The notes beneath the pieces were generated by a model. The model saw nothing but the letters and a program-made list of their open reading frames with translations. It was not told where the DNA came from and ran no database searches. A stretch of DNA of 64,000 bases from Hypomesus transpacificus (Eukaryota > Chordata > Actinopteri > Osmeriformes > Osmeridae): positions 10,573,186-10,637,185 of the forward strand of contig NC_061074.1 in the NCBI RefSeq assembly GCF_021917145.1, read 5' to 3'. Positions 3,986 through 64,000 of this stretch are shown piece after piece (position 1 is the first letter of the stretch; the number at the start of each line of letters is the position of its first letter). Both the position numbers and the translations under genes were made by a program.

Positions 3986-6900
3986 CCAACATTTCAGATT
4001 ATTTTCCAGTTTAAGACAAAGTCAAAGGCAGGAAGATGTATTAATAAAACGAATAGATAAAAGCATTTGGTAAATTAATACATTATATATACAGACAACA
4101 TCAGAGACAAAAAATACTTTAAACAGTGAACACAGACATAACCATCCACTCATTATTTAAAGGCCAGCCAATGGAAATTAATGGATGAAGTGGCTGGTTC
4201 ATGGGCTTCAAGCCCAAAAACCTTTACATCATAAAAATCATAAGATCTTCATTCAACTCTTTAAAACACAATAAAATGTAGTCATTTAATTTTTTATTTA
4301 CGAAAATACTGCACAATGAGTGTTGATTTCAACAGTCCTTTGTGATAACATGGCTGTATTGTGGGTGAGTAATAGTCATTACTATTGCACACGAAGAGCT
4401 ATTGTTTCTGAAAATGCGGTGTAAAATGTCAAACAAGATGAACTATCATACATAAAACACCATTCATAGATTCCATATAATGTAATGAAGGGTCGCTTAA
4501 GTCAGAAATTCTCACTGGTCTCGCTCGTTTTCCACACTGGTGTTTCCAAAATAGTAACTAAATGTCATGTGCAGTGATGTGTATCGATTCTGAAGCAGAA
4601 TGACGGGGTGAGAGGCTGAAGCCCCCCCCCCTCCCCCCCAGGCCCCCTCCCGCCCTCACCGAACATCAACAGTCATTCCAAGGTCAGGCCTGCTGGCAAA
4701 ATGGATTTTACCATCGGCCTCCTGCTCTTCAAACACCACGAGCTGAAGAAACAAACCCACATTAGGCTTCAAGTAGAACAGAAGAGGGGTTAGCGGCTGG
4801 GGATGCCCCACCCCGGACTGTTCCGGAAAGCACTGCCGAGTTCAATATTGTCAAAGTCGGGGGTGGCGGTGCCGGGGGGGTTCTCCAGCTATATAAAAAC
4901 TGTTGACCTGTGTTATTTCTAACACGGGCATTGGAATTGGAAATTCTTGTAGAGGACGTGAGGAGATTTCTAGTTAATCCCGAGGACCGGTTAGAGATGT
5001 GGGATGTTGTCAGTACCTGATTAGCTCCCTGCTTCAGCCAGGGGGTAGGGAGGTAGATGGTTTGCTGGGGCCCTATGGACCAGTGGCGTCCAAGATTCTG
5101 CCAGTTGATAAAGACCACTTCTTTACCCTAGCCCTGTGGAGGCACACTGAAATGAGTTACTACTATTCTTCCTAAATTCCTCCCTTCAGAGTTATCTGAT
5201 TACTAACATGCTAACAAACAAAGGACAAAGTATGATCAGGAAGCACTCTCATAACCTGATAAGCTTGTCGGCTTCACTCACAGGAAGTCTTATGAAGGTG
5301 CCTCTGGGAGGGCCATCTACATCCAGACTGGCCTGGAAGAACCCTGGAAAGGAGGCCCTCTGGGAAACTGAGTTCCACTGGCCTGCAATCAGTCTGAAAT
5401 TATATATATTTACCAGGAATGTAAATTGTTTCATGACAAGTTAGGACATTTAGATTTCATTAGCAAGCTTTACAAACAAAAATACAAACGCTGCCCAGAT
5501 TGAGATGATTAATAATAATAATTCATTGATTTCCACTAGCTCCCGGTGTAACTGTCCACTGTGAAAAAGGCGAAGGAAGATAACCTTGATGGAAACAGGC
5601 AGGTGTACTGAAAGAGACAAAAGATCAACAAACAGAGGGGTGAATTAAAAGTAAATGATGGGTACAGACCGGTTCATAAACTCTGGAACCATATCCAGAC
5701 ATAAATGGTAACGTCTCGAAGCGCCACATCATTCAATGCAATATTTCCAACAAGTCCTGGAAAATAAGACAGTTCTGTCCTCGGCTCTGTGGGAGAGGGA
5801 GTTAATTAACTGAAATATCAAACTCCACAACAAGAAGGGGAAACAATTGAATTTGTACCTTTGCGCTGTTTGTCTAAGAGTTTCCCATAATTCCGTTTTC
5901 CACCAGTAAACTCAATGTTCTCTCTCCCTTCAATGGGAAAATGCATTAAACATGAGCAAATTGTTATTGGATAAGCAAGAGCTTTTTATGCTAAGCACCA
6001 AGAGAAAACAGCAAGAAACATTTGCCTTTCACCTGGGCTGCATAAAGTAATTGATCAAGCACAATCTCTGGCTGCACCTTTTGGATAAGCTGCGTGAACT
6101 GTATTTCCAATTGCAAGTGGCGAGTCCAAAGCTGTCTGGTTGTAATTCTTCTTTGTTAGGACAACATTTGTCTGGAAAGTTGCTGTTGGCTTAATCCTGG
6201 CACCTCAGCAACCACATTTATCAGCATCACCAGGAGCTTTCACATCTAACATGGTGCTGAATATTAACAAGAGCAGGTTCTCGGGAACAGACCTCAGTAG
6301 CACTCCTAGAGCCTGTCCACAGAGCACACTAACACACTACCTTCCCATCAGGCATTGCAAACACCTCGGTCTTGTAGTCTAGGATGCCAACAAAATGTCT
6401 GTCCAAAAACACCTGGAACACATATTACGCTATTACGAATAGTCCAAGTCCCCCACTGTCAGTGGGCATTACCATCATGACCAAATCATATTTAATGCAG
6501 CCAAGACAGAGGTGTCCGTGTCCTCACCAGAGCTCTGTCCCTGACGTTGTTCCAGGAGTTCAGAAAGCCTCCATTGGTGATGGTGGTCTCATAGAGAGTG
6601 TAGCCGTATGACTGACCGGACTGGGAGGTTCTCCATGTTGACCGGCCTCTCAGACCTGCATGACTGGGGAAAACAAGGAAGCAAACTAATCCAGCCGTCT
6701 AGCACAGAATGTACAGCTACATCTCTAAACCAAGTGCAAACAGCCTTTTCAATAACAGTCATTACGAAATAGAGTCTTCCGACAAGAGGGCCTATCTGGA
6801 CGGTGGGAAAGTAATTGTTGTCTCACAGGGGAGAAAATTACTGCAGCGGGGAGTGAATAATTAATGATGTAAGCAACTGCCAGACGTGCTACATCTGTCC

Positions 6901-7200
6901 AGAACATAAACTGCCCTGAAGAGCATGTTATAAAGCAGCCTTGTCTGGCCTAAAGATATAGTACAGTACCAGACATCCCAGTTGGTTTAGCATGCACAAC
7001 ATGGGCATCAGCTGACCTTCGTAAACTGTAGGCTCTCCCACAGGGACAGGTGCTGGAGGATGACAGAAGGCTGGTAGACACTCCTGTCCTGAAGAAGGGA
7101 GAGGGGGACCTCTGGAAGCTGATCACCTGACACACACACTTGTATGTGTGTACAATTCCATCCGTGCATGTGTGTGTACCTGACAGTAAATGCCACTCAC

Positions 7201-7228
7201 TGTGGTACCAATTGAGAAGGTTCCTCAG
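7201..7228 (-). pseudogene. Second, partial copy of galactosidase exon 9
   Basis: Directly upstream (minus sense) of exon 10 is a 28-bp piece reading L-R-N-L-L-N-W-Y-H-S, ending in a good GTGAGT donor. It is followed by an intron that closely matches intron 9 of the live plus-strand gene. A complete exon 9 lies 3 kb away at 10288-10208. The end of exon 9 therefore occurs twice, on either side of the Tc1 element, which shows a rearrangement or partial conversion within the relic. Confidence 0.7.
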
Positions 7229-8134
7229 GGCCATACAGTCATTAAACAGTGTCTTACATTTCTGTGTCTGTGGATGCATGCATGTCTGTCCAACTGACTG
7301 ACGGAATTCCAAATAGCATTGTCGAAAAACCAAACCAATCTTCATGCAAGATTTACCCATTCACAGGTGTTGCACATATTAGCCCCATTCTCCAAACTGA
7401 CTCATTTTCCAATATACTGTACCATTATAGCTGGCCGTAGCTGCTCTTGAGAAATGCTATCCAAACCCATTAGCTGTGATAAAACACTCTGAATGTGTGA
7501 ATGTTGAGTCTAGCTCAAGCACTCCCCTACCACCCGTTTGCGAAACACATACGCCTAGTGTTGATGGCCTGTATGCCTCACTCGAAAAGGCTTTTCGAAG
7601 CAGTATTGACTTGTAAACAGCAAACAGGGCTCAGTTAGGATCTTCTTCTCTCAAATTGTGTTCAACATTTTTGTGTTTGACTATCTTTCCATGTTCTATG
7701 TTATTGCCTCCGGAAGGTTCATCCTGGAGTGGTGACAGCTTTGCTGCAGCTTTCTTTGTACTTTCTTCAAGAACCAGACTATTTCATGAGTCAAGGAGTC
7801 TTCAAACAAGTCGTAGACTTTAAAAGGACACCGTTTTCTTTATTCAGGCAAAATAACGGAAGATAATTATTATCATCTGTCATCACAGGCTGGCGTGAGT
7901 CACAGAACGACTGAGAGCTGCTCCGAGCAAAACAATAGGACATATCACATCTGATCTAATTACAGAATTAGGTCATGTGTTTATGGTTGGTGAACAGGAC
8001 ATAAGCCTATCAGATGGTTTAGTGGCTGCTTTCATCCAGGCTAGGGCTTATTGTTCCCACAACACAGAAATGGTTTGTTCTGTGTTTGTTCTCTGAAATA
8101 TGGCTTATCAGGAGACTGGATTCATATGGTTATA

Positions 8135-9795
8135 CAGTGCCCTCCAAAAGTATTGGAACAGTGAGGCCAATTCCTTTATTTTTGCTGTAGACTGAAAACA
8201 TTTGGGCTTGACATCAAACGATGAATGTGAAACCAGAGATCAACGTTTCAGCTTTTATTTCCAGGTATTTACATCAGGATCTGATGCACAAATTAGAAAA
8301 TATCACCTTTTTGTTCAAACCCACCCATTTGTCACGTGAGCAAAAGTATTGGAACATATGACTGACAGGTGTGTTTTGTTGCCCAGGTGTGTCCTATTAC
8401 ATACATTATTCAATCAATAAATACCACTGAATGTCTACACTCAGGTTCAGATTGGGTAAGATAGGTTTTGTCTATGCAGACTGTATTCAGAGGTGAAAAC
8501 AACATGAAAACCGGAGCGCTGTCTTTGGGTGAAAAACAAGCAATTGTGAGTCTTAGAGAAGATGGAAAATCAATCAGAGCCATTGCAGAAACATTGGCCA
8601 TAGCCAGTACAACCATTTGGAATGTCCTGAAGAAGAAGAAAACTACTGGTGTACTAAGTAACAGACGTCGAACAGGTAGACCAAGGAAAACATCAGCAGT
8701 TGATGACAGAAACATTGTGAGAGCTGTAAAGAAAGACCCTAAAACAACTGTTAGTGAGATCAGCAACAACCTCCAGATGGCAGGAGTGAAGGTATCACTA
8801 TCTACTGTTCGCAGAAGACTTCATGAACAAAAGTACAAGGGCTACACCAGAAGATGCAAACCACTCATTAGCAAGAAGAATAGGAAGGCCAGGCTGGAAT
8901 TTGCCAAAAAGTACAGAGATGAACCTCAAAAATTCTGGGACAAAGTTTTATGGACTGATGAGACAAAGATTAACTTTTACCAAAGTGATGGAAAGGCTAA
9001 AGTTTGGAGAAAGAAAGGAACTGCTCATGATCCCAAACACACAAGCTCATCTGTGAAACACGGTGGAGGTAATGTCATGGCTTGGGCTTGCATGGCTTCT
9101 TCTAGGACGGGCTCATTAATCTTCATTGAGGATGTAACACATGATGGCAGCAGCAAAATGAACTCGGAAGTCTACAGAAACATTTTGTCTGCCAATTTAA
9201 GGAAAGATGCAACCAAACTGATTGGCAGAGCCTTCATCATGCAGCAAGATAACGACCCAAAACACACTGCCAAAACAACAAAGGAGTTCATCAGGGGCAA
9301 GAAATGGAAGGTATTAGACTGGCCAAGTCAATCTCCAGACTTAAACCCTATAGAGCATGCATTTTACCTGCTTAAGAGGAGACTGAAGGGAGGAACCCCA
9401 CAAAACAAACAACAACTGAAAGAGGCTGCAGTGAAAGCCTGGGAAAGCATCAAAAAGGAAGAATGCAAAAGTTTGGTGACGTCAATGGGTCACAGACTTG
9501 CTGCAGTTATTGAAAGCAAAGGATTTGCAACTAAATATTAAGTCTTATTCACTTAAATATGTTTTAAGTATATCTGTTCCAATACTTTTGCTCACATGAC
9601 AAATGGGTGGATTCAAACAAAATGTGATATTTTCTTAGTTGTGCATCAGATCCTGATGTAAATACCTGGAAATAAAAGCTGAAACGTTGATCTCTGGTCT
9701 CACGTTCATTATTTGATGTCAAGCCCAAATGTTTTCAGTCTACAGCAAAAATAAAGGAATTCGCCTCACTGTTCCAATACTTTTGGAGGGCACTG
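8135..9795 (+). mobile_element. Tc1/mariner transposon, copy 1 (1,661 bp)
   Basis: The element begins CAGTGCCCTCCAAAAG and ends with the exact reverse complement, flanked by TA on both sides as expected for Tc1/mariner target duplication. The inverted repeats are about 220 bp (8135-8357 and 9574-9795). Each carries the motif 'caaaagtattggaac' near both its outer and inner end, the IR/DR arrangement of many fish Tc1 elements. It encodes an open transposase and sits in intron 9 of the galactosidase pseudogene. It matches the copy at 35328-36988 in length and almost base for base. Confidence 0.97.
8504..9541 (+). CDS. Tc1-family transposase, intact reading frame
   Basis: This DDE transposase excises and reinserts its own element at TA sites. 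Starting at the ATG at 8504 gives 345 residues, close to the usual ~340 for the family; an in-frame ATG at 8474 would add 10. The N-terminal third is a paired-type helix-turn-helix region with a G-R-P-R motif (residues 58-61). The catalytic triad is visible as W-T-D-E (D152), Q-Q-D-N-D (D249) and N-P-I-E-H (E284), giving the D-D-34-E spacing of Tc1. Residue 201 is Arg here but Gly in the copy at 35697. As I recall, Gly is usual at this point in the 'S-G-T-G' stretch, so this copy could be weakened despite its open frame. Confidence 0.95.
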   Translation: MKTGALSLGEKQAIVSLREDGKSIRAIAETLAIASTTIWNVLKKKKTTGVLSNRRRTGRPRKTSAVDDRNIVRAVKKDPKTTVSEISNNLQMAGVKVSLSTVRRRLHEQKYKGYTRRCKPLISKKNRKARLEFAKKYRDEPQKFWDKVLWTDETKINFYQSDGKAKVWRKKGTAHDPKHTSSSVKHGGGNVMAWACMASSRTGSLIFIEDVTHDGSSKMNSEVYRNILSANLRKDATKLIGRAFIMQQDNDPKHTAKTTKEFIRGKKWKVLDWPSQSPDLNPIEHAFYLLKRRLKGGTPQNKQQLKEAAVKAWESIKKEECKSLVTSMGHRLAAVIESKGFATKY

Positions 9796-11095
9796 TATAT
9801 GTTTAGCTTATTCCAGAGACTTGTAGAGATATTGGAGGATTAGATGGTTGAAGCAGCATGGTATTGTCTGTACTTGTGTTAACCGATAGGCTGAAGGAAT
9901 TGTATGTTTTTGCAGCATTGCAACTGATCCTGTATCTCTATTTGAACACATCTAGAAGCTAGCAGTTAAGCATAGGTGTCATTTCTAGACCAAGCCACAG
10001 TTTGGAGGACCCCCCCCCCCCCCCTAGGGGCCGTAATCTCTCTCTCTCTCTTTCTCCCTCCCATACACACTGTAGCCAACCAAACAAGCCTTAAATCAAT
10101 CTCATCCGTCATTAGACAGAGCACATTTCCCAACGGGCCCTAACTACATCACACAAGTTTGGGTGAGAGAGATCCACTAAAGCTGAGGCCCTCTCGGCGA
10201 CACTCACTGTGGTAGCTGCCGAATAAATTCCTCAGAAGATGGTACTTGGTGGTGTAATCCCCAGCCTCGGATAATGGAGCGGCGTAATCTGCAAGATAAT
10301 GCGCTATCAGAACAGCAGGCATGTGAGAATGCGAGGCGCGATGCCTCCTCACGCGTCTGGCGGTTTGGCCCTGCCTTTATCGAACATCTCGATGCAGCAG
10401 GAGTTCCACATTTCCAAGACTATCTCGACAGGTGCTGTTCAGGGAATTTGAAAGGTAGGTGGGAACCCAAGTAGTGATGCAAGTTCACGCAAACATTATG
10501 TCAGTGCAGAGGGTCAAAATGCAGTCTCTTTGGTCTGCTTTTTGAGCCAATTCTACTTGAAGTAGGGAGGTCTTTAGGATGTTAAACCCCAAGGAGGACA
10601 TAAACTCCCCTCTTGTTGCCTTTCATTTGCGTTTCCAAAACGTATTACCAGGGTAATGAATTTGTTAATGAAAGAGCGTTCAACAGCAGCTAGAAGGTTG
10701 CTGTACTGTTAAGGAGTGACAGCACCACCTATTGGCTGACAGAGGCACAATGCAACTACGCATCTCCAAATCAAACAGATCCACAGATCAAAAAACACAA
10801 CAGTGTAGAGAGATTGATATAATGATAACAGTTAAGTCACAACTAACCATAGCTAGTTACCATGGCTTTGGGTCAGCTGTGTGTGGCCAGAGCCCCATTC
10901 ATGAAGCCAAAGTTTGTCCCTCTGTGGAACATGTAGAGGTTGATTGATTTCTGGTTTAGGGATTTCTGTTACAAGAGCCATCATCTCTGTCAAAAGAGGG
11001 ACACAATGACTTCCACAGTTTATGCTGTTGTTTCAGAAACCGCATGTGAAGGTCAGACCTAGGGCTGGAACAACACAGAAAATGGCTACTACTAC

Positions 11096-11286
11096 CTTTA
11101 CATTTAGTCATTCAGCAGACGCTCTTATCCAGAGCGACTTACAGTAAGTACAGGGACATTCTCCCCGAGGCAAGTAGGGTGAAGTGCCTTGCCCAAGGAC
11201 ACAACGTCATTTTGCACGGCCAGGAATCGAACCAACAACCTTCCGATTAATAGCCCGACTCCCTAACCGCTCAGCCATCTGACCCC
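11096..11286 (-). repeat. tRNA-derived SINE, copy 1
   Basis: Read on the minus strand the element starts 'gtcagatggctgagcggtta'. This contains a pol III A box (TGGCTGAGCGG), followed about 35 bp on by a B box (GGTTCGATTCC). A conserved body 'ccttgggcaaggcacttcac' and a tail 'gagcgtctgctgaatgac' follow. The same element recurs at 28066, 42022, 56981 and 63343. It lies between exon remnants 8 and 7 of the galactosidase pseudogene. Confidence 0.85.
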
Positions 11287-12724
11287 GTCCTTTACCTGTA
11301 CACAGTGCCATACTGTCACAAGAGGGACAAAGACCCAAAGGAAATAAGCAGATATATATTTTGTGTTTAAATTCCATTTGGCACTAGCCTTAACAAGCAG
11401 CAAAGCTTGATTCAATTATGCCATTGACCTAAATCCACTGTCGAATGCAATATGGAATGACCTTTGACGCACCTTATTACAAGTGGCTGCAATTTATCAT
11501 CAAGTGACACCTTTTGCATTTCTATTCCCTCCATCACCCCACACTGATTAGCTACACACAATGGGTGCACAGTGAAGTGACTGAGGATAATTATATATTC
11601 AAAATGGGCTGTCTTTAGTGATTCAAATCAAGGGCACAGGGATAATGACTAACAGTGGAAGGGAGTGACTGAGCTTGACTTGATTAGCTTCCTGCGGGTG
11701 GTGCACAAGGTGGGCGGTGTAGGAGTTATTTTTTTCATTTTTTATAAACAATCCTTGAATTGTTCACCGCATGATCTCAAGACAAAGGACCAGGACGTGT
11801 GCTTCAGTGCACGTATGTTTTGCATGGAATAAGGTTGTGCATAGCAGGGTCCAAAGGCGTTTAGAAAAACATGTGGTGAATGGGTTAGTCACTGAATCTT
11901 GCACACAGTGAACTCTCTTCCCTGCAGTGGCGGGTGAGTCACGCTTATCTAACACGGATTCATACCTGCAGTACTTTCTCCCGTAATAAAACCTGTTTTG
12001 CTATGCTTTGCATGTGTGAAAAGAATCAATTCAATGTGCAGATGTTTGGTCCTTTTTTATCAAGAAAACTATCAGGGATCTGGAAGGTTACCAACGCTTT
12101 CAAATTGTATAATTTTCAAAACAAGAAATGCATGGTGTCATACAACAAAATAATGCCAATATACTGATATGAGGGATATTGCAGATACTGGCTTAATTTT
12201 GTTTATATACTGCTGATGGCTCACAAGCCAGTGTGCATAAACATTTTCATACCTGACCAAACCTCAGCACAAAGGACAAGTGACCATCTGCTATTGCTAA
12301 GTTCCAAACAGTTAATAGGATACATGCCATACATAGATGAACCCTGCTGGAAGAGGAAATCAGATTTTTCTTTCAAATTGCTTTCCGTAATTCCTAGTGT
12401 CCTCTCTCCTCATCATCCCCTCAGGGGATGAATCTGAAAATCTCCCCAAAACTTGTACCTACAATGCATTTGGATGTAGACAAGTAGCTAGGACACTGGA
12501 AATGAGTTTTGAGAGCAACTGCTTTCTCAACCTCGGCTGGAAAGAAAGGGTGAAGGTCACCCCTGAGGTCGAACCATCAAGACAAATACTCCATCACCAA
12601 TTTGGGTTTATGTGGCTGTAGGCCAAGTAGAAATGTTTAAGTCAGAGGAAAAAATGTAAAACCACATCATATTAAAATATAACTTTAATTGACTGCAAAA
12701 AGAACCTTATATGTTATTCCAGGA

Positions 12725-12935
12725 CAGGGGTGGGCAATTCCTTAGGGGCCACTGTCCTGCATGTTTTAGATGTTTCCCTGCTCCAACACACCTGATTCAC
12801 ACCTGAATGGTCATTACCCGGCTTCCACAGAGCTTGATAACAACCCATTCATTTGAAACAGGTGTGCTGGAGTAGGGAAACATCTGAAACATGCAGGACA
12901 GTGGCCCCTAAGGACCAGGATTGCCCACCCCTGTT
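12725..12935. mobile_element. Foldback MITE-like element (~210 bp)
   Basis: The two halves are long imperfect inverted repeats: 'caggggtgggcaat' plus 'ggggccactgtcctgcatg' on the left mirror the right end near 12905-12933. The whole element would fold into one hairpin with a short loop. It has no coding capacity. Related sequence, 'ctgtcctgcatgttttagat' and onward, occurs at 63880 to the window end. The arrangement suggests a non-autonomous DNA transposon, perhaps hAT-type, but I could not define a target-site duplication. Confidence 0.7.
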
Positions 12936-15440
12936 ATAGGGCAATTCAAGACAGTGAGACAAGTAGTGACTCATCTTCCTGATTTCCCACATGTACTGTG
13001 TGAGGTCTATCGATTAGAGTGACAGAGCCCTCGTCACATGTCAACATGACACATCCACTTGTATTGCATCTAGATACTTTCAGGACTGAGTTTCTGGAAG
13101 TTGACGGTTTCTAATGCTTTGGAGACACAGCAAAACAAAATTGTCAGCATACTGTAGCAGATTTTGCCTTGTCACTGGGCCTAAAGTAAATGTGCATACA
13201 ATGGCGACAACCCTGTATGGCAGTAAAGATTCAACAACCCTGCACTATTTTCATTTTAATCAGCTATGATACTGTAAATTGATCCTGTTTTCTGAACACA
13301 CAAACTAAATCTGGATCCATCTAAACAAACGGGCTAATCCGCCTCCATTGTACTCAGACTTCAAGTGGAGAGGGAATTAGAGAATTAGAAGGCCCGCTGG
13401 GTTCTCTCAGTGGCTGCCTGACACCAACTCGTCCTTGGCACAGACATGGGTTCTGGTACCAAGCTAACTGCTGCTGCACTGCAGGCTTACTCACCAGGCC
13501 GGTGTTTCTGTGTTTGTGTGTGTATGTGTGTGTGTGTAAATTGTTTGGCCAGAGAGTACAATACCTTCATTCATTCCACCCTGTTAAAGCCCATCCTGGT
13601 AGTCTGAGGTCAAGAGGAGCTCTGTGATTCCCCTGGACAATAGCCCCTGGACACAGCAAGATAATTGTGGTCGGAATGACATCACATACAGTAACACTTG
13701 TTTCAAAGAACATTTTGTGGAGAAATGAAGTTGAAGAGATTCATTTAGGGTGAAGGAGAGATAGAGAGGGAGTCGGTGACAAGAGTTAGTGAATGAATAA
13801 GTGAGTCCAACCTCTTTTACAACCGGCATGTATTCATTGTCTTTTGCGTAAGAGCCATATTCATTTTCCACTTCAACTGCTATAATTGTCCCACCATTGG
13901 AGTACTGCAATTGAAATAGCAAATCAAAGTGTTCGTTCCAGAGCATCAGCATTTTTCTCAATCCCACTTAACAATATCAATCTTTATTTAATCTTTGTAT
14001 AAGAGTTTAGATAAAACACAGTCTGTGATTTCTCTGTGATCACTTGAAATATGTATAAAACAGGATAAAGGTTTCATCTCATCTTGACACATGGTGTACT
14101 GTACCTGATATGGCACAAGTCTAGGAACCAGCTGATCAAAGAAGCAGCTGACAGGATCGGTGAACTGTGGATAAGTTCATCTCAACTTCATGTTCTCATC
14201 ACGCAAATAAATATTCCAGCAACATAATGACACTGATCGTACTGTCCACCTTCTGTGCTGCAATGTAGGCCAAAAATTCTTGAGGGGAAAAATCCTTTAA
14301 AGACTATTATCAGAATCACATAATGGTATATTATTATTATCATCATCACCATTATCAAATTCTCATGACTTCCTGATTTCTCTGATTGCAAAATGATGAT
14401 TTTCTACCTCCTTTTGTAGCTTTCCACTGTGCTGGGTGTTGATAATATGAAGATAACTATCAAAAAACAACATGACGCATCAGCGTTCGTTTATCAGAAA
14501 TTTAAAATAGCAGAGATTAAAGTGATTACGGGGAAAATTAAGATGCAGACAGCATCCCGGTATGCCGCTAAGCTTAATGTCTTTGCTGTATACAATGTTG
14601 AGTTGCTTCATGATTTGAGTTTCTGTGAGGGCTGCATCTGCAAGGAGTTATCACTAACCTGGGCAGCTCTCCTAAATCCATGATGACCCAAAGCCACAGT
14701 TTTGCTGCCAGGCTGATGTATGCTCTGAAAACACACAGAGATTCAGGCAAAATTCAGGGAACACGTCCAAACAGCTTCATATCACTGTCTGAAAGTGTCG
14801 CCCCTTCTTACTCTAAATCCAGCTGGTCCTGGAAGTTGAAGACTCCTCTATCGGGTTCATGCAGGTTCCATGGTACATATGTGGTGAGTGCGTTGACCCC
14901 ACAGGCCTTCATCTTCAGCAGCCGGTCCCCCCAGTAGGCCCTGGGCACACGGAAGTAGTGGATGGAGCCTCCCAGGATGTGGAAGGGCTCTCCCTCCAGA
15001 GTGACCTGGGAAGAGTTGGCCCTCAGACCCTCTGTGCGGCTCATTCTCTTCACTGCTGCAGGATGTGTGGGAAAACGTTAGTTTTGTTATTACTGAGAAT
15101 ATTACCATGAAAACAATAGTCACACATTGCTTTACGAAGAACATACATTTAAAGTAGTCACGTTTCAAAAACCAAAACACTGGTAAAAATTCAACTGGCT
15201 CCAACCACAGACTGAAGTAGAAGAATAAATCGTAAAAAATGTTTGGATATGGTAATTCCATGAAATTCACTGTAGTCATAAAGTAGGTTGTGCCACTGCA
15301 AAATGTAAAATCTAACAGTTACGTCTCTAGGCTACATGAATGTCCAGTTCAAGGGGGTAGGTGAAAGTTTATAATAACCACAGCTATCTTCAGCATTCCA
15401 TATGCTCCTCAACCACTTTAAGTCTTCTTTAAGTATGCGT

Positions 15441-15528
15441 AATACCTTACGTGAGTTAGTATTATACTATTCTTTATTTTGTTAATTAGCAATCACTTGA
15501 GGAACACTTGCAACTCACGTAAGGTATT
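15441..15528. repeat. Perfect 17-bp inverted repeat in the head-to-head intergenic region
   Basis: AATACCTTACGTGAGTT at 15441-15457 is exactly mirrored at 15512-15528, leaving a 54-bp loop. A 15-bp direct repeat, ACTTGAGGAACACTT, lies at about 15494-15508 and 15529-15543. The structure sits between the divergent galactosidase genes. It could be the remains of a small transposon or a regulatory palindrome; nothing else identifies it. Confidence 0.75.
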
Positions 15529-15956
15529 ACTTGAGGAACACTTAAACTTGTCAAGTGCAAACTCTTCACGAACGTCGGGACAACAACAACGTTGAAAACT
15601 GCTCACGACTAATTCCACACCTATTCCTATCCCGGATTATTGGCTATAATCGTATATATTAATCCGAGAACAAATTAAACAGAGAATGGCATAGCGTCGT
15701 TAGAGGACAGAGGGAATACCAAAGTTTTTACTGTTTTCACCCAGCTAGTGTAATGTCACCTTGGTGTTGAAGTAGGGTATTCTATCCGATTTAGTGTAGC
15801 TAAAACACAGTAGCCTACACAACCGCTACATCAAGACACAAAGGCGGTTACATCCACTTTGTAACGTAAGAATGTAGTACAAGATTAGATCGTGCTGGGC
15901 GTTTTTTCCCAGCTGCATGCTGTTTTTCCAAATGTAAATATTTATTTGAATAGTAA

Positions 15957-15969
15957 CCACTAGGGGGCA
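15957..15969 (+). promoter_or_regulatory. Candidate CTCF binding site
   Basis: CCACTAGGGGGCA fits the vertebrate CTCF core (CCASYAGRKGGCR) at every position. It lies between the divergently oriented galactosidase pseudogene and its live paralogue, where an insulator or promoter-anchored site would be plausible. Motif match only; occupancy is unknown. Confidence 0.55.
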
Positions 15970-16711
15970 ACAAACTGTCAGTGCAATTAATCAAATTTTT
16001 AAGACACTCACTGTGAGTTAAACGAAATATAAAGGTACAATAGGCTCATACTGATTTGCCAGTATCTAACTAATAACAATCTCTATTTTTTTTGTATATA
16101 AACTGACTTTGTCCAGTGTCAATCAGCCCATGTCTCTGTCCAGTTGTTTCCCCTCTTTCTGTCATGCATTGGACTGCCTCAACCACTGTCTCATCACAAA
16201 ACAAACAGCACTATATTTGTTTTCTGATACAACAATGGTTCCCCTTGTTTCTGCTATTCTAGACCTTACTACGTACAGCTCTCCCTACGTTTAAGTTGTC
16301 AGTGCCAGCACAGCTTCAACCTTAACAGTAGTTTGTCTGTTGGCAGTTTTCAAAACCTTTTTCTCTGTAAAACTATTCAGATGGATTATTCATTTTAGCA
16401 AGATCATCCGTGGTAAGTTACCCCCAAGTTTTATGTTCATATCGTTTATATTCTTGTCTCAGCAGTTTGGTCAATATTGTATGAGCTTATGTCACACTGA
16501 AAGGATATATTCTGAGTCAGTTGACTCCTGTAGCTTTGATATATGTAAGGATGCTTCAGATGATATGATACAGTACATATAATTCTTAACACAGCCTTGA
16601 TACATTTCATACAGCGTCATAAATATTATCAGTAAAACTCAGGTAATATACATCCATTTTAGTTGTTAGAAGTATAGTTGTATTTTATTTTTTACTTAGT
16701 TTCTCCCCCAG

Positions 16712-19700
16712 ACATCCAGCAGCAGTGAAGAGAATGAGCCGCACAGAGGGTCTGAGGGCCAACTCTTCCCAGTTCACTCTGGAGGGAGAGCCCTTCCACA
16801 TCCTGGGAGGCTCTATCCACTACTTCCGTGTGCCCAGGGCCTACTGGGGGGACCGGCTGCTGAAAATGAGGGCCTGTGGGGTCAACACACTCACCACATA
16901 TGTCCCATGGAACCTGCATGAACCCGAGAGAGGAGTCTTCAACTTCCAGGACCAGCTGGATTTAGAGTAAGAAGGGGCGACACTTTCAGACAGTAATATG
17001 AAGCTGTTTGGTCGTGTTCCCTCCTGGACACGGCCTGAATCTCTGTGTGTTTTCAGGGCATACATCAGCCTGGCAGCAGAACTGGGGCTGTGGGTCATCC
17101 TGCGTCCAGGACCCTACATCTGTGCAGAGTGGGATTTAGGAGGGTTGCCCAGGTGAGAAGTTTCCATTGCCTACTTAAGTTCAAACTTAACTCTAAACTC
17201 AATTACATATATCACATTGTGTTGCACTAAGACTTAGTGTGTCTTCAGCTGGTTATTACGGGACAGAGACATGAGGTTGAGGACCACATACCCTGGTTTT
17301 ACAGAAGCAATGTGCTCCTACTTTGACAAACTCATCCCTATAGTCAAACCTCTGCTGGTGAGTGTACCAGTTTAATGCATACAAATGGCAACAGCCAATC
17401 AGAATATGAGAGCAAAGTTGAGTCGCCCAATGGTTACGTTCACAAGATCCTTCCTTGATAGCGGTTAATGTCTGTTGTTTGTCTTTTGTTAGTATGAAGA
17501 AGGAGGCCCCATCATTGCTGTTCAAGTGGAGAATGAGTATGGCTCGTATGCAAGGGATACAGACTACATGTCGTTCGTAAAAGAGGTGGGAAAACTCCTG
17601 TCACTCTTTATTTTGAAGATACTGCATACTGCACAGATAATATTTACAGGTTATCTATGACAGCTACCTCCAAAACACTGTTACCACTCTGTAGTTTGAG
17701 ATATTGTCCTTTGCAGACACTGCCAATTTTATCCCCACTGAGAAGCCAATGTAGTGTGCTGTTTTTCTCTCTCCACAATGCAGTGTTTTTTGCTGTGCAA
17801 ATTACCTACAGAAAATGATAAAACCAAAATGGTCTCCTCCTTGCCAGGCTTTGCTGTCCAGGGGGATCAATGAGCTGCTGCTGACTTCAGACAATCGGGA
17901 GGGATTGAAATGTGGAGGAGTAGAAGGAGGTATTGAATTTTCTATTTGATCATTTTTTGTTGCATGGATCCATTTGCCATTTAGTTTGACCTCTGTTAAA
18001 TGGTGTTACCTTGTGAAGTTGGTTGTTCATTTTACTCTCTTTCTTTAAAGCTCTCAAAACAATCAACCTCCAAAAGATATCCTATGGGGTTATTCAATAC
18101 TTGGCCAGTATGCAGGTGAGTAATTGTATAAAAACATATCCTTTATTTAGCTGACATATTTTGTTGACATGTGCAAAATGCAACTTGTGTAGTATATTTT
18201 CATAGTATTAATTGTTTTACCTTTAATACTTTTTGAAGCCTGATAAACCTCTGATGGTGATGGAGTACTGGTCAGGCTGGTTTGATGTCTGGGGTGAACC
18301 TCACCATATTTTTCACGCTGAAGGTATGTATGGCATGTGTCCATTTTGTTCCAACCATTTAACTCTTAGGTTTCCCAGACATGAATTAAGCCTATAGTCC
18401 TAAAGTAAGAGAAAAATTCAATGAAGATCTCAACTGAAAACGTTTTTAGACTAGTCTTACTCCATGCCTGGGAAACTGGGCCTAAAGGTATAAATCCAAT
18501 GTAACTTTCTTAGCATCAATCTAATCAAAGGACATCTGTTTAAAGTTGTCGCCATCGTGTCTCTGTTCAGTTTTTTGGTCTGTCTTTGGCAGACTTGCTG
18601 GATGTGGTGGATGAGATACTGAAAAGAGGTGTATCACTCAACCTGTACATGTTTCACGGTGGAACCAGCTTTGGGTTCATGAACGGAGCTGTAGATTTTG
18701 GCACCTACAAACCCCAGGTTGGCAGCTATGGTAGGTTGTATACTACATCCTCTGGCCCATTTCAGCATGGAAAACAAATGGTCTTTCTGAAATCGAAATC
18801 CAACCTTTGAATTGAACTTCAGATTACGATGCTCCGTTGTCCGAGTCTGGGGATTACACCAGAAAATACTATTTACTTAGGAAACTCTTCACCCAGTACT
18901 ACAGTGAGTGTCATTTACTGTCAGTTACATACACATGCATGGATGGAATTGTACACACATACAAAGACACACACACACTTACAGCTGTTTGTGTGTGTCA
19001 GATAATCAGCTTCCACCAGAGGTCCCCCCCCTTCAGGACAGGAGTGTCTACCAGCCTGCTGTCATCCTCCAGCACCTGTCCCTGTGGGAGAGCCTACAGT
19101 TCACTAAGGTCAGCTGCTGCCCATGTTGTGTGTGCTAAACCAACTTTGGCTTCTGGAACCATCTTTATTTGGTATTGAAACTGAACTGCATTTTTGCTTC
19201 TGGTTTAGCCGTACAGATCCGTGAAGCCAGTCAACATGGAGAACCTCCCAGTCCATAACGGGAACGGTCAGTCATACGGCTACACTCTATATGAGACCAC
19301 CATCACCAATGGAGGCTTTCTGAACTCCTGGAACAACGTCAGGGACAGAGCTCTGGTGAGGACACGGACACCTCTGTCTTGGCAGCATTAAATATGATTT
19401 GGTCATGATGGTAATGCCCACTGACAGTGGGGGACTTGGACTATTCATAATAGCCTAATATGTGTTCCAGGTGTTTTTGGATAGACATCTTGTTGGCATC
19501 CTAGACTACAAGACTGAGTCGTTTGCACTGCCTGATGGGAAGGTAGTGAGTTAGTGTGCTTGTGGACAGGCTCTAGGAGTACAGCTGGCTCCAACTTCCA
19601 GTTTTATCATCAATGTATTTTATATTTAAGGGGGCAAGAACATTGGCTCTACTAGTGGAAAACTGTGGGAGAGTGAATTATGGAAAAGCCCTTGATGAAC

Positions 19701-20706
19701 AGCGCAAAGGTACTTTTGTTCTTTGGAATAAAGCTTTGTGTTTTATTTGTTTCTCTTTAGTATGGAGAACTGATCAAATTCTTCTGCAAGGATTTACAGT
19801 TTGGCCTTGCTTCATGTTGTCACTTCAACGCTGCTGTATCTAAGAACACATTCTTCCGTTCTTCCTCCACATTCCTTTTGGTTTTCAGGTCTAGTGGGAG
19901 ACATTTTTTTGAACAACACTCCTCTTATGGGCTTCACAATGTACTGTTTGGACATGAAGCCAGGTTTCATAAACAAGTTGGTCTTTATTTACTTTTATCT
20001 AATAAAAGCAGATTTTAGCCGGTAGTTCATCTTTTATTACAGTTGCTCTCTAATGTTTCAGACTGATTGCAGGCCAATGGAACTCAGTTTCCCAGAGGGC
20101 CTCCTTTCCAGGGTTCTTCCAGGCCAGTCTGGATGTAGATGGCCCTCCCAGAGACACCTTCATAAGACTTCATGTGAGTGAAGCCAATGAGCTTATCTTT
20201 TTATGAGCATGCTTCCTGATCATACTGTATTCTTAGTTATTAGCATCTAATATCAATTAGATACACATAATTAGTTAAGGTTTTAAGAGAAACTCTGAAA
20301 CTTTGAATTCAGGAGGAATAGTTGTCACTCATTTCAGCGGGCCTCCACAGGGCTGGGGTAAAGGAGTGGTCTTTATCAACGGGCAGAATCTTGGACGGCA
20401 CTGGTCCATAGGGCCCCAGCAGTATTTGTATCTACCTGGACCTTGGCTCCAAAGTGGACATAACCAGGTACAGAATCCATTCAAAATAACTAATTTGATC
20501 AAATCTTGCAAGTAATGTCCCCGAAAAGCTGAGACGTCTACAAGAGCAGCATTGTATTGATTGATTTCAGTAAATTCTCATCCATTTTTGTTTAGATTGT
20601 CATCTTTGAAGAAAGCCGAGCTGGTGAGAAGATAATATTTGCTGAAAATCCCACTCATGGTAAAACTGTTGATGTTTACAAACACCTGTTTTGTTCACTG
20701 CTTTAA
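16712..20706 (+). CDS. Beta-galactosidase-1-like protein 2/3, GH35 family (5' end not found)
   Basis: Seventeen exons join in frame: 16712-16966, 17057-17152, 17249-17357, 17493-17585, 17848-17929, 18051-18115, 18239-18323, 18593-18730, 18823-18903, 19002-19108, 19209-19355, 19471-19542, 19631-19709, 19889-19976, 20062-20173, 20351-20467 and 20596-20706. They give 611 residues ending in TAA. Human GLB1L2 has about 636, so a short N-terminal signal/anchor exon is missing upstream; the first in-frame ATG here is 16734. GH35 landmarks are clear: G-G-S-I-H-Y-F-R in exon 1, [10 protein letters not shown] in exon 2, acid/base Glu of N-E-Y (17535-17537), nucleophile Glu of M-E-Y-W (18263-18265), F-H-G-G-T in exon 8 and F-I-N-G-Q-N-L-G-R in exon 16. 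Known GH35 members remove terminal beta-galactose in lysosomal or secretory compartments; the substrate of the L2/L3 branch is not settled. I see no inactivating change. GLB1L2 versus GLB1L3 cannot be decided here. Confidence 0.92.
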
Positions 20707-28065: not shown

Positions 28066-28222
28066 ACTTTTTGCCACATTTGGCAGAAGCTCTTATCCCC
28101 GAGGCAAGAAGGTTGAAGTGCCTTGCCCAATGACACAACATCATGTTGCGCGGCGGGGAATCGATCCGGCAACCTTCTGATTACTAGCCCGACTCCCTCA
28201 CCGCTCAGCCATCTGACTCCCT
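28066..28222 (-). repeat. tRNA-derived SINE, copy 2 (degenerate)
   Basis: On the minus strand the head 'agtcagatggctgagcggt' and B-box-like 'GGATCGATTCC' remain. The body motif 'ttgggcaaggcacttca' and a shortened tail also survive. It has more substitutions and a smaller body than the other copies, so it is probably an older insertion. Confidence 0.75.
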
Positions 28223-31245: not shown

Positions 31246-38167
<6,922 letters not shown>

Positions 38168-40296: not shown

Positions 40297-43200
40297 TCAG
40301 GCCTTCATGAGGGCACTGACCACAGCACGGGCATTGAGGCTGCGCAGGTCGTTGTAGGTTTGTCCAGTGCCCACGAACACGATGGGCTGGCCTGTGATGT
40401 ATGTCATGGAGATGGCAGCACCCACCTGAGGGGGTTGAGGAGGAGGAATGTCAGCGCCCACATGACCCCTCTGAGAGTCAACACTCAAAACGAGGTAATC
40501 AACAGTCATCAGCCAAGTCTTCAATACAGCTTTCAGTACAAAATAAGTGATTTCCTAAACGCTGTAAATAGTACAGTATCAATTGTTCTTTTTACCATTC
40601 AATTTAACATTAAAAGAATTGTATTCATTCAAAGTACAAAAATAATGTTCAATATGGCGTTCTTTGGAATGTTGCATACCTTATCATCGATGGTGTCAAA
40701 CTTTGTAAGAACGATCCCGTCTATGAGGCGTGGTTTGTCAGACATGGAGTGATCAGCCAGAGCCTGGTTAAACTTCACCTGGAAACAGAGCACGAGTCAG
40801 GCAACCTGGAGTCTGAACTATGGGAGGTGTACCAATTATGAGGAATACTAAAGTTTGGTTGGGGAAAACAGCTTTAAAAAAAAATGAATCGACACTGCCC
40901 TCTGCAGGTCAAATGTGACAATACGCCTAACCACTGCGCCATAGATATATTAGCAGAGCTGAACATTTTTCACAAACAAGAGGAAAGATTCTCCCATTTT
41001 AAAGCTGGTGTAGGCAAGTTTTGCGAAGCTAGCTATTTTAGCTTCTATTCGAAACGATCAGAGATGTACAGTAACAAAGTACAAATATTTAGTTACTGTA
41101 AGTAGATAATTATTTACAATTTATATATTTTTCTGACAACTTTTTACTTTCACTCCTTACATTTGTTTACAGAAATATCAGGACTTGCTACTTTAAGTTT
41201 TCAAGCCAGGTTTGTTATCTGTACTTCTACTTGAGTGAAGCGTGTGTACTTTTGCCATTTTTGCAAACGATTCAAACCACAATATCCCACCCCCTTCCTT
41301 CAAAGCCACTCCCACAAAACACAAGACTGTGCTGCTTGACAACAGAACTGCCAGGAGACTCGTCTACAGAGAGAGAGAGACCAGCATAATTTTTTTCACA
41401 AATGACCCCATGTCGCATTCACATGTAAGAACACGCACAACCCTATCATAATGAACATAAACATGGCCAACGATAGTGCTCACTACTTAAAAGCAAGCAT
41501 GTTAGTATTGGGAAAACATTTATAATAGTTTTAACCCATTGCTGGCAAGCTATCAACAGCTGGCTGCGGTAACGTTAGCTAGGTACAGTAAGTTATCAGT
41601 CAAGTGCAGGGGCAGAGTGCACGCAGGTAGGTAGGTAGACAGGTAGCCGGTCCAATCATTAGCTTTGGAACGGTAGATGTAGATGAGGCGACAAGACTAC
41701 CAGTACAACCATAAAGCTGTCTCACCAGCTGGTCCACAGCCTCGTTGCCCACCAGGGCCTCGCCCACGAACAGCACCAGATCAGGCATGTTGACGGCAAT
41801 CAGCTTGGCAAGGGCCGTCATCAGCGGGCCGTTATCCTGCATGCGGCCAGCGGTGTCCACCAGTACCACGTCAAAGACCTGGTTACGCGCTGAGGAAATT
41901 CAATGCAGTCATAAGAACCCTGGGGGGAATCATCCTATTTCTTCCTTGAAATAGGAGGATGCGACGTGATGGCGTGCGTTTCTTTTTGCATATTGCGACA
42001 AAGGATTTCTCCTGTATTTACATTTACATTTAGTCATTTAGCAGACTTACAGTAAGTACAGGGACATTTTTCCCGAGGCAAGTAGGGTGAAGTGCCTTGC
42101 CCAAGGACATGTCATGTGCACCGGCCGGGAATCGAACTGGCAACCTTCAGATTACTAGCCCGATGCTCTAACCGCTCAGCCACCTGACTCCTGTATTTAC
42201 CATAGGCAATAGCCTCCATGGCGATGCCTGCCGCATCCTTGCCGTAGCCCTTCTCGTACAGCTGCACCACGGGGCGGCCCCCGTGCTCCTGGGGGGGCCG
42301 CAGGGAGCAGAGGCGCCGCTGGTGGGTCCTCAGCTGTTCCACTGCCCCGGCGCGGAACGTGTCACACGCCGCAATCAGAACAGTGTAGCCGTTCTCGATC
42401 AGCCAGAAGGAGATCTGGACCCGGGGCGGGAGAAAAGCACAGGGTCAGGGGTGGGGATGTATTGATTTCTTAGTGATGGAAATGATGCCTCTTAAGCTTG
42501 AAGGGGTTTGGGTACAAGCTAGTTGTGTGTTGCACCGGGTAGATAGGGGTCTTCCAATTATTAAAAAATCAATGCATGCATATTAACACAAAATCAATAG
42601 AAGCTGTATTCATGTGGATGTAGTGTTGAAAATAAAAGAACAGGAGGGTAGGTAGGTGACCATTTCGCTTTTCAAGTCAACACAAACAGTGACTGAGGAT
42701 AAAATACAACCCACTCAAATCTTAGCTACTCGACCACAGTCAGGCTGTTAGGGAAGGAGGCTGTTGTGAAAAGGAGTTATGGTGATCAACCATAAGATGG
42801 CGATTTGGGATATAAACCATTGCATGAAAGGTTCAGGGTTGGAGTGGTGGTGTGAGAAGGGGATGAGACGGCCCAGGTTCACAGCCTGTGTGCCGGGACT
42901 CACCTTGGCCAAGTTGGTGGACTTGCCGACCCCGTTGACCCCGCAAAAGGTGATGACGAAGGGCCGGCGCTGGCTGCGGGCCTCCAGGACATCTCGGAGG
43001 ATGTCCACACGCCGCTTGGGCTGCAGGATGTGGACCAGAGAGTCCTGCAAAGCCTGCTTTACAGTGGAGGCCACAGCTAGCGATGAAGAGAGACAGGGAA
43101 GGTTTTAATGCCAAACAATATATTAAATTTGTATAATGTGTTAAAAACCACATTTGAGCATTTGTGTACAACTTACTAGTGAAAGTGCCCATGACTTTGC

Positions 43201-47588: not shown

Positions 47589-48707
47589 ATGTTTGGTAAG
47601 TAGAATTTTGTAAATACATTAATATAGGTAGCCTCTTGGCAAAGTAACCAACAAATGCAGATGGACCTGTATTGAGTAGCCTGCATAGCCTGATTTGTAT
47701 TCATCAACTTAAACTAGGTTGTGTGACATTCTGGGATACTGAACATTACATATTCACACAAATGTGTGTCATCTTGGACAGGATGGTTCCGCCAAAAATG
47801 GCTTCAATCTAAAAGAGAACCTCCAATACAGAACAGCTCTGCACCAGATGACCAGGAGTCATTAGGGACAATCAAGGACACCTCTCCATCATCATCATCA
47901 TCATCATCATCTCCACTCACCTCCCCATCTCCCTCTCTTCCTGCTGTCTTCACCTCACCTGTTCGTCGGACTCGGAAATACGACCTGTGTCTGTGTTATA
48001 GCCATGCAGACATTGAAGTAGCCATGTGCATGGCATCATACCTTGAAGCCCAACCTCGCAGCCTTCGCTGTTTTCTGTGGCAAAGAGATGACTGTCCCGG
48101 AGGTGCCATCTCCACTGAGTTGTGCCGGGCTGTGCAAAGCAGCCACTGCCAAGCGCTTCTCATCAGCCCAAACTTCATCGTGGATGAATGGTGCAAGTAC
48201 TTAATGTATCAGGCACTTGCTGAGGGGCCCATGTCTAACTGCATCATTCCCCTCAGGCTCAATCTTTCTTTCTCTCAGTATCCTTCAGAGCTGCGCTTCT
48301 ACTCATCTATTGACCTGGCAAGGAACACAGAAAAAGGATATGAATTGGTGTTCAAGACAGTGCTTAAGCGTGAGTATTGAAACGATGAAACCACTGTGAC
48401 TTATTATTCTGTCTCTTAAATTAGTTTAAATGGTGTGGTTGTTGAAAAATAACCCTACAATATCATTTTCTTGTTTCACTTTATAGACCTGGATGATATG
48501 ATCAAAAAAGCTCAGGAAACGCATGGCAACATTGACAGTTCTAACAATATATTGAAAGGAGCAAGCTGCTCACAACCAAAAAATTCAGAACTTTTGGAAT
48601 CTGGATGTTCACCGCAAAGATTAGCAAGAGGAGAGTATACACTAGATGGCACACAAGAGATACAACACTTTGAAGACTGTTGTAAATCCCCCTTTGAAAA
48701 TGACTAA
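47589..48707 (+). CDS. TIRAP (MAL), TIR adaptor of TLR2/TLR4 signalling
   Basis: Three exons: 47589-47595 (M-F and one base), 47782-48369 and 48487-48707, totalling 271 residues. The first exon is short; splicing there yields M-F-G-W-F-R-Q-K-W-L, which matches the human start M-A-D-W-F-R-Q. Two upstream ATGs (for example 47554) do not join in frame. A basic N-terminal segment and a serine/proline linker with eight consecutive Ser (39-46, from a TCA repeat) precede the TIR domain. That domain begins K-Y-D-L-C-L-C-Y-S-H (68) and has a BB loop R-D-D-C-P-G-G-A with the Pro at 108. W-C-K-Y and L-R-F-Y follow. The family bridges membrane TLRs to MyD88 through PIP2 binding. After the TIR domain about 70 residues (exon 3) extend past the human C terminus and are of unknown role. 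Confidence 0.92.
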
Positions 48708-63342: not shown

Positions 63343-63488
63343 TTACATTTACATTTACATTTAGCAGACGCTTTTATCCAGAGCGAGTTACAGTATGTAC
63401 AGGGACATTCTCCCCGAGGCAAGTAGGGTGAAGAGCCTTGCCCAAGGACACAACATAATTTTGCCACGCCCGGAATCGAACCAACATC
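63343..63488 (-). repeat. tRNA-derived SINE, copy 5 (head truncated)
   Basis: On the minus strand only the B-box part ('GGTTCGATTCCGG'), body and tail are present; the A-box head is missing. The tail carries repeated 'acattt' units (three copies), the usual 3' end of this element. Confidence 0.8.
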
Positions 63489-63879
63489 AAACCAAGTCTT
63501 TCTGTCTTCAGATAATATCTCACTCTATGGTGCTTGTGCCTGTCCAAACAGGTCAGCCTGACTGTTTGGAGCAAGTCCCCGAAAGAGCCATTGTCTTAGG
63601 CTCATTTGTCCCTTACTCAAATATGTAATGTTCTCGTTCTGACCTCTGATCACGATCGTTTTTATTACATGATCGTGTAATCAATAGTGCAATTTGGTTT
63701 TTATGCTTGGTTGCGCTATTTTTAAGATAAACTCGTTCACTTGGTAGTTTTCCATCTAATTCATCAATACAGGCCTAGAATGGGGTACGTCATACAGTTT
63801 TGGCCCACAACATTCTCTATGAAGCCTTCTGGGAAGTCACAAAGGCCTTGTTTTTAATTTGGTCTCCAAACCTGTAGGA

Positions 63880-64000
63880 CAGTGGTTCCCAACCCTGGTC
63901 CTCAGGGAACACCTGTCCTGCATGTTTTAGATGTTTCCCTGCTCCAACACACCTTATTCAAATGAATGGGTCATTAGCCAGCTCTGCAGACGCCTGCTTC
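63880..64000. repeat. Partial foldback element, cut by the window end
   Basis: It begins 'acagtggttcccaaccctgg' and continues with 'ctgtcctgcatgttttagat', the same core as the element at 12725-12935. Only the left part is inside the window. Confidence 0.65.

Follow-up and report, generated by a model that had tools for sequence, protein, structure and literature searches.

A 64,000-nt stretch of Hypomesus transpacificus DNA (GCF_021917145.1, NC_061074.1, forward-strand positions 10,573,186-10,637,185; called the window below) carries two inverted paralogues, an intact gene (L) and a relic (R), for which we assume the names beta-galactosidase-1-like and GLB1L2/3. We consider it probable that L and R, which stand head to head, form an old gene pair and exchanged short stretches by ectopic gene conversion, chiefly from L to R, with the last round taking place when R was unconstrained. 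The sequence shows that the exchanged stretches are sharply bounded, conversion-like and DNA-mediated, and that intron 15 is of another age than its neighbours. We further infer that L was the main donor and R the recipient, and that the last round came after selection on R had ended. The two copies are:

16712..20706, plus strand: L, intact GH35 beta-galactosidase-1-like gene, 17 exons, 604 amino acids, GT-AG borders at 16 of 16 introns
4656..15066, minus strand: R, relic paralogue, 17 of 17 exons, exon order as in L

The L protein matches PF01301 (GH35, E=1.9e-113) together with PF21317 and PF21467 (both beta domains: all-beta, galactose-binding), and its ENEYG motif is intact in an alignment to 3thc and solved GH35 enzymes; we assume a catalytic role for this motif, with the second Glu as acid/base. 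The first exons of L and R are separated by 1.6 kb, and BLAST found no match within this spacer. R carries six in-frame stops (exons 3, 5, 6, 7, 8 and 16), those of exons 6 and 8 being read by hand next to a 6-bp and a 3-bp insertion, respectively. It also carries four frameshifting deletions (exon 8, 2 bp; exon 11, 11 bp; exon 13, 10 bp; exon 14, 1 bp) and an in-frame 30-bp deletion in exon 2, and has lost the exon 3 acceptor. With its frame disabled and its exon-intron order retained, R is a duplicated pseudogene. A processed (retro)copy is ruled out, as R has introns and the introns within the close tracts described below were copied too.

A search of the fish's own genome (437 Mb, 376 contigs), in which only the best-scoring candidates were evaluated so that the number of paralogues is a minimum, yielded a third close paralogue (C) on contig 5 (locus L024:3020-7640). 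It has 18 exons, encodes 597 amino acids, is open throughout and shares 64% protein identity with L. More distant relatives were found among the best candidates on contigs 22 and 29. Where L and the solved GH35 enzymes aligned with it have ENEYG, C reads ESKYG, the second Glu being replaced by Lys, and on this sequence C may be a pseudoenzyme.

L and R were aligned exon by exon and intron by intron; aligning the complete pair at once, with long gaps freely allowed, was dropped since it forced doubtful matches in dead introns. A two-state hidden Markov model (HMM) over 2284 aligned sites, with states of 0.044 and 0.353 differences per site, fitted better (Bayesian information criterion 2022) than one rate (2283) or three rates (2056). 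It delimits five sharp close tracts, ~4.4% different, while exons elsewhere differ by ~35%. The segments of R are listed below (E, exon; i, intron; exon 9' is a second, truncated end of exon 9).

14670..15066, minus strand: close tract 1, E1(1)-E2(85), i.e. exon 1, intron 1 and most of exon 2; pairs with 16712-17141; 19/385 differ
10208..14213, minus strand: diverged block, R exons 3-9, with introns unalignable with L
7201..7229, minus strand: exon 9', directly before tract 2
6982..7203, minus strand: close tract 2, E9'(27)-i10(35), i.e. end of exon 9', intron 9, exon 10 and start of intron 10; pairs with 18901-19143; 14/216 differ
6303..6642, minus strand: close tract 3, E11(22)-i12(37), i.e. 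most of exon 11, intron 11, exon 12 and start of intron 12; pairs with 19230-19579; 11/339 differ
5670..5927, minus strand: diverged block, R exons 13-14
5271..5393, minus strand: close tract 4, E15(2)-i15(11), i.e. exon 15 and start of intron 15; pairs with 20062-20184; 3/122 differ
5158..5270, minus strand: middle of intron 15, homologous, 26/112 differ, read as an older conversion
5064..5157, minus strand: close tract 5, i15(154)-E16(70); pairs with 20327-20420; 6/94 differ
4656..5062, minus strand: diverged block, end of R exon 16 and exon 17

A cluster of differences (8 bp) in intron 1 is excluded from tract 1 by the HMM. Identity between L and R reaches 0.92-0.97 in exons 1, 10, 11, 12 and 15, with 8 differences in the 255 bp of exon 1, 6/104 in exon 10, 6/72 in exon 12 and 3/112 in exon 15. 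It is 0.89 in exon 2 with the 30-bp deletion set aside (4/43 before the deletion; 7/87 in the adjoining intron 1) and 0.79 in the mixed exon 16. Across all 17 exons, L-C identity is 0.49-0.77.

An earlier sequence-only reading of this DNA had described such a patchwork by eye, and the observation is confirmed, with two refinements, on exons 10-12 and on intron 15 (homologous, yet clearly more diverged than the tracts). Intron 11 shows, as stated, 3 differences in 115 bp; exons 3-9, 13, 14 and 17 are the more diverged ones (identity 0.51-0.78); exon 16 switches abruptly, with 4 differences in its first 71 bp and 21 in its last 46 bp; and similarity in intron 12 ends early, at ~37-46 bp. The close blocks it had named (exons 1-2 with intron 1, exons 10-12, exon 15) are all close, but exons 10-12 are not one block: intron 10 similarity ends after ~35 bp, and exon 11 begins with a diverged stretch (8 differences in its first 23 bp). 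The edges within exons 11 and 16 lie in coding sequence that aligns without indels, and they look like conversion tract ends, and those in introns 10 and 12 pass into R sequence with no detected L counterpart. Exon 17 is still open in the dead copy and matches C at 61 of 87 bases vs 48 of 87 for L. The last exon of L (20596-20706) has drifted and has a longer tail, and R exon 17 retains the end common to C.

Synonymous divergence (dS) between L and R is 0.07 (0.03-0.11) in the tracts vs 1.57 (1.12-2.70) outside. Between L and C it is 1.23 (0.92-1.85) in tract columns and 1.68 (1.22-3.19) in diverged columns, with wide intervals. Constraint is excluded because the intact C is far from L in both sets of columns, and the contrast in dS, with C as control, gives good support to the tracts being gene conversion between ancient paralogues.

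The introns behave in the same way. A match to L was found for all four introns lying between two close exons (introns 1, 10, 11 and 15), for two of five with one close neighbour (introns 9 and 12; not 2, 14 and 16) and for none of seven without a close neighbour exon. The six matching introns score at z 13-70, and z lies between -0.5 and 3.2 for the remaining ten. Of these, the highest values belong to intron 5 (z 3.2, a score that 2 of 200 shuffles attained) and to intron 14 (z 2.1). In a GENECONV-style permutation test, three L-R exon fragments exceeded 2000 of 2000 permutations, whether all sites, sites variable among the three genes or third positions alone were used. The same test gave one weaker fragment each for L-C and R-C, within exon 1, where C is somewhat close to L and R (base 25 to 170 or 178); at third positions this was significant only for R-C (p=0.009), and no significant L-C fragment was detected there. 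Neither a smooth profile explained by constraint nor introns equally distant in close and other blocks, which the sequence-only reading had named as grounds for giving up gene conversion between the inverted copies, was observed. Its proposal is upheld by the dS contrast, by the introns that track the close blocks, by the abrupt switches without indels and by C, which removes constraint as a cause. Third-position GC in L is 0.667 in tracts vs 0.494 outside; as C trends alike (0.627 vs 0.523), no claim of GC-biased conversion is made.

Mechanistically, a break in one copy would have been repaired with the other copy as template, pasting a short stretch, and ectopic conversion would in this way have moved stretches between L and R that comprise 94 to 375 aligned bp and include introns. 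Such lengths fit the conversion tracts of yeast, which average 200-300 bp in most follow-up studies according to a review (PMC3924818). The same review places conversion mainly above 80% identity, with a low rate below. Because the present background lies far below 80% identity, the islands would have been kept alike by earlier conversions and not have newly arisen: recurrent conversion may have kept them convertible, while other segments left the identity range in which conversion works. As a tentative extension, which we think has less than an even chance of being right, the islands would be the last remnants of a conversion regime predating the R/C duplication, from which segments escaped one by one and saturated while a few were copied again and again, copying into R continuing for some time after its loss of function.

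Conversion had also been said to be repeated, and on this point intron 15 is informative. Although lying between close exons, it differs at 28 of 147 positions vs 19 of 348 for the rest of the tract introns, counted within HMM edges (p=8e-6). This 19% divergence does not reflect a conserved background, since intron 15 of L and C could not be aligned (score 16). It suggests that intron 15 preserves an older conversion, which exon 15 and the first part of exon 16 have lost to later overwriting, and that the tracts are of at least two ages. The remaining tracts are of similar age (4-9%). Exon divergence is 4.9, 9.1, 4.3 and 3.8% for T1, T2a, T2b and T3, with T2a counted past the HMM edge, and homogeneity is only marginally rejected (p=0.045). 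Repeated conversion is moderately supported, and one main late episode and one older one would suffice.

This similarity is also what a single episode would give, in which one long heteroduplex was resolved in patches and intron 15 is merely fast-changing. We regard this as rather unlikely, given the divergence of intron 15. Within tract 3, moreover, exon 11 with intron 11 (4/228) and exon 12 with intron 12 (8/109) differ from each other (p=0.02, an unplanned comparison), and the tracts are scattered along 10 kb of R, separated by introns that cannot be aligned.

With C as outgroup, 28 of the 31 coding differences in the tracts (748 sites) could be placed on branches; C is distant, so single placements may be wrong. 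On the R branch 12 of 17 changes are nonsynonymous (one a stop); a share of 0.757 is expected under neutrality, and the share departs from the 0.38 expected at dN/dS 0.2 (p=0.007). For the L branch the count is 5 of 11. R-branch changes are therefore neutral-looking, and R was probably a dead gene at the time of the last conversion or shortly after it and has probably been unconstrained since. R may well have been dead already before the last conversion, for which the diverged exons give weak support. They contain four stops that arose by substitution, or three if the uncertain one in exon 8 is not counted, vs 1.1-1.9 expected if death and conversion coincided, with p 0.03-0.13 for four such stops and 0.10-0.30 for three. 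The sequence-only reading had conversion continuing after one copy had died: the neutral changes agree with this, while the order of events, death first, is carried only weakly by the stops and, as described below, by the other lesions.

Direction was approached through intron length. The fully copied introns of R measure 87, 115 and 148 bp vs 102-1544 bp, mostly long, for 11 other R introns (p=0.011, or 0.014 without intron 12); the partly copied introns 9 and 10, both long, were left out of this test. No corresponding length split was seen among L introns. Short copied introns in R favour copying from L to R, which we regard as the probable, unproven direction.

Protein trees were rooted with outgroups taken from the structure bank; a first tree, in which two distant paralogues were anchored on L, had been discarded as biased towards L by construction. 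The diverged exons group R with C (support 97/93) and the tracts L with R (98/94), few residues being decisive. Approximately unbiased tests, run after the trees had been seen, gave p 0.039 against L+R outside the tracts and 0.027 against R+C inside. Judged by sequence, L and R are about as distant from each other as from C, and the L-R pair is probably at least as old as the R/C split. An intron at codon 55 is present in C and in the hits on contigs 22 and 29 and absent from both L and R; its site lies in tract 1 (L 16712-16966; R 14812-15066), an exact intron loss within a converted tract. R and C also have a neighbour in common, a GT43 glycosyltransferase gene, presumably B3GAT1, which we take to adjoin GLB1L2/GLB1L3 in mammals. 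Pieces of it flank the tail of R (window -9.1 kb to -0.3 kb) and likewise the tail of C (contig 5, 5137143-5139051); their order and orientation agree at the two loci, and two of the pieces have Pfam support.

Several results weigh against copying chiefly from L into an R already dead, or against the ancestry just outlined. The nonsynonymous shares of the R and L branches in the tracts are not distinguishable (p=0.25). The sequence-only reading had placed the stops mainly in the diverged blocks. This is right as a count, 5 of 6; the excess of stops and frameshifts together is not significant, with 8 disabling changes in 341 diverged codons vs 2 in 253 tract codons (p=0.13; 9 vs 2 and p=0.09 when the lost exon 3 acceptor is added). 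Exon indels are about equally frequent (5 events in diverged, 4 in tract exons). At first and second positions of the diverged exons R has 79 unique states vs 66 for L (p=0.28), so that R has not evolved significantly faster; its death would then be recent and perhaps coincident with conversion. Residues of outgroup type favour L over C by 29 vs 12 in the diverged exons and stand at 11 vs 12 in the tracts (p=0.106), which if real is a weak hint of copying from R to L. With two outgroups at a time R+C holds at 95-97 and the tract branch L+R falls to 86-87. Shared derived residues for RC, LR and LC number 10, 6 and 3 when any outgroup match is accepted but 4, 2 and 3 with the outgroup majority. 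The R+C clade is dependent on the tree model.

Conversion may have acted at the moment of R death or even as its cause. Pieces of L placed in a paralogue of ~60% protein identity, with a misplaced exon 9 fragment, would have made a useless chimera on which constraint ended. The estimate of constraint loss, (79-66)/659 or ~0.02, resembles the divergence of the R branch in the tracts (17/748), and exon 9' adjoins tract 2. We judge conversion as the killer of R unlikely, somewhat more so than a single episode, in view of the 3-4 substitution stops in diverged exons vs ~1.1-1.9 expected, weak as this excess is (p 0.03-0.30).

The reverse transfer, from R into L at a time when R was a living gene that died only later, would account for the loss within the tracts of L's excess of ancestral residues and for an R exon 17 that is open and nearer to C than that of L. 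Fully copied R introns that are short like those of L and unlike other R introns, and the neutral-looking changes on the R branch, make this direction less likely again, perhaps one chance in several.

That R arose by the joining of two old tandem relics, the first ending at exon 9 and the second starting at exon 9', is improbable. The end of exon 9 does occur twice in R (10236-10208 and 7229-7201), and exon 9' matches L and R exon 9 at 19 of 29 positions each, with 18 between L and R exon 9; apart from R's own exon 9 it is the sole place with at least 19/29 matches in 11.2 kb. Nevertheless, exon 9' is just 29 bp long, the sequence upstream of it showed no similarity above shuffles to five stretches of R and L, and a fusion leaves tracts 1, 3, 4 and 5 unexplained. 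An assembly or polishing artefact placing L reads in R is highly improbable: the sequence is one assembly, but the tracts are ~4% different and carry their own 11-bp deletion, stop and 30-bp deletion, where an artefact would tend to identity. Finally, an uneven profile from exon constraint with no conversion is refuted: exon 1 is conserved between L and C too (19 of 146 differ at bases 25-170), but the introns follow the tracts, dS is ~20-fold apart, third positions hold no L-C fragment and C is far from L in both sets.

Gene-pseudogene conversion is familiar from pairs such as GBA/GBAP1 and CYP21, which are young and highly identical throughout; the L-R pair differs from these in a background near saturation (dS ~1.6). 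As in other cases of gene-pseudogene conversion, living and dead neighbours swap short tracts, a pseudogene acting as conversion donor in Gaucher disease (PMC2720389). The mammalian pairs BMP8A/B (inverted), DDX19A/B and TUBG1/2 in the same paper show mosaic concerted evolution: like L and R they are old pairs, one inverted, in which some exons coevolve with intron similarity and others diverge. There, however, both partners are genes and age is read from orthologues, whereas here one partner is a relic and a single species is compared. GOT1 paralogues of Tigriopus californicus (PMC3728101) likewise have blocks of high and low divergence; one pair has conversion largely confined to exons with an intron too diverged to align, and one is not functional in every population. 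That study has population data, unlike ours, and the coding sequence of that pair shows no substantial divergence. The palindromes found in mammalian sex chromosomes (PMC8981503) share the inverted copies with L and R but have whole arms >99% identical, where L and R have only islands. Among the literature matches listed, no title or abstract start treats this gene pair.

The L-R pair is probably a clean new case of a known kind, mosaic concerted evolution, in which one partner is dead and the background nearly saturated. Conversion is recorded free of selection when one partner is a pseudogene, and tract ages, edges and later neutral changes can be read against the almost saturated background, so that the edges are unusually clear. 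The pair may show how islands remain convertible long after the rest has escaped. If exons 1, 10-12 or 15 of such genes were used for trees, a recent duplication would be indicated falsely.

A transposon was found within R:

8132..9798, plus strand: Tc1-like transposon in R intron 9, with an open 357-aa transposase frame

A second copy at 35325-36991 is 99.76% identical (4 differences in 1667 bp), and both hold an open 358-codon stop-to-stop frame. The copy in R looks younger than the tracts, and the family was possibly active recently. A short interspersed element, presumably a tRNA-derived SINE, occurs in five copies (11093-11294, 28093-28220, 42044-42191, 56973-57137 and 63344-63486), four of them 87-92% like the first. 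A palindromic repeat at 12724-12934, with arms ~80% alike, recurs at 63879-63994 and on contig 5 near 5104320-5104536. An open frame with a TIR domain (PF13676, E=1.3e-14) at 47730-48377 belongs to a gene or exon of innate-immunity type. A translated match of 40 residues (77.5%) links window -175 to -56 (contig 15), on the tail side of R, with contig 5 5147699-5147818, on the head side of C; the contig 5 copy contains a stop, and the match is perhaps a repeat.

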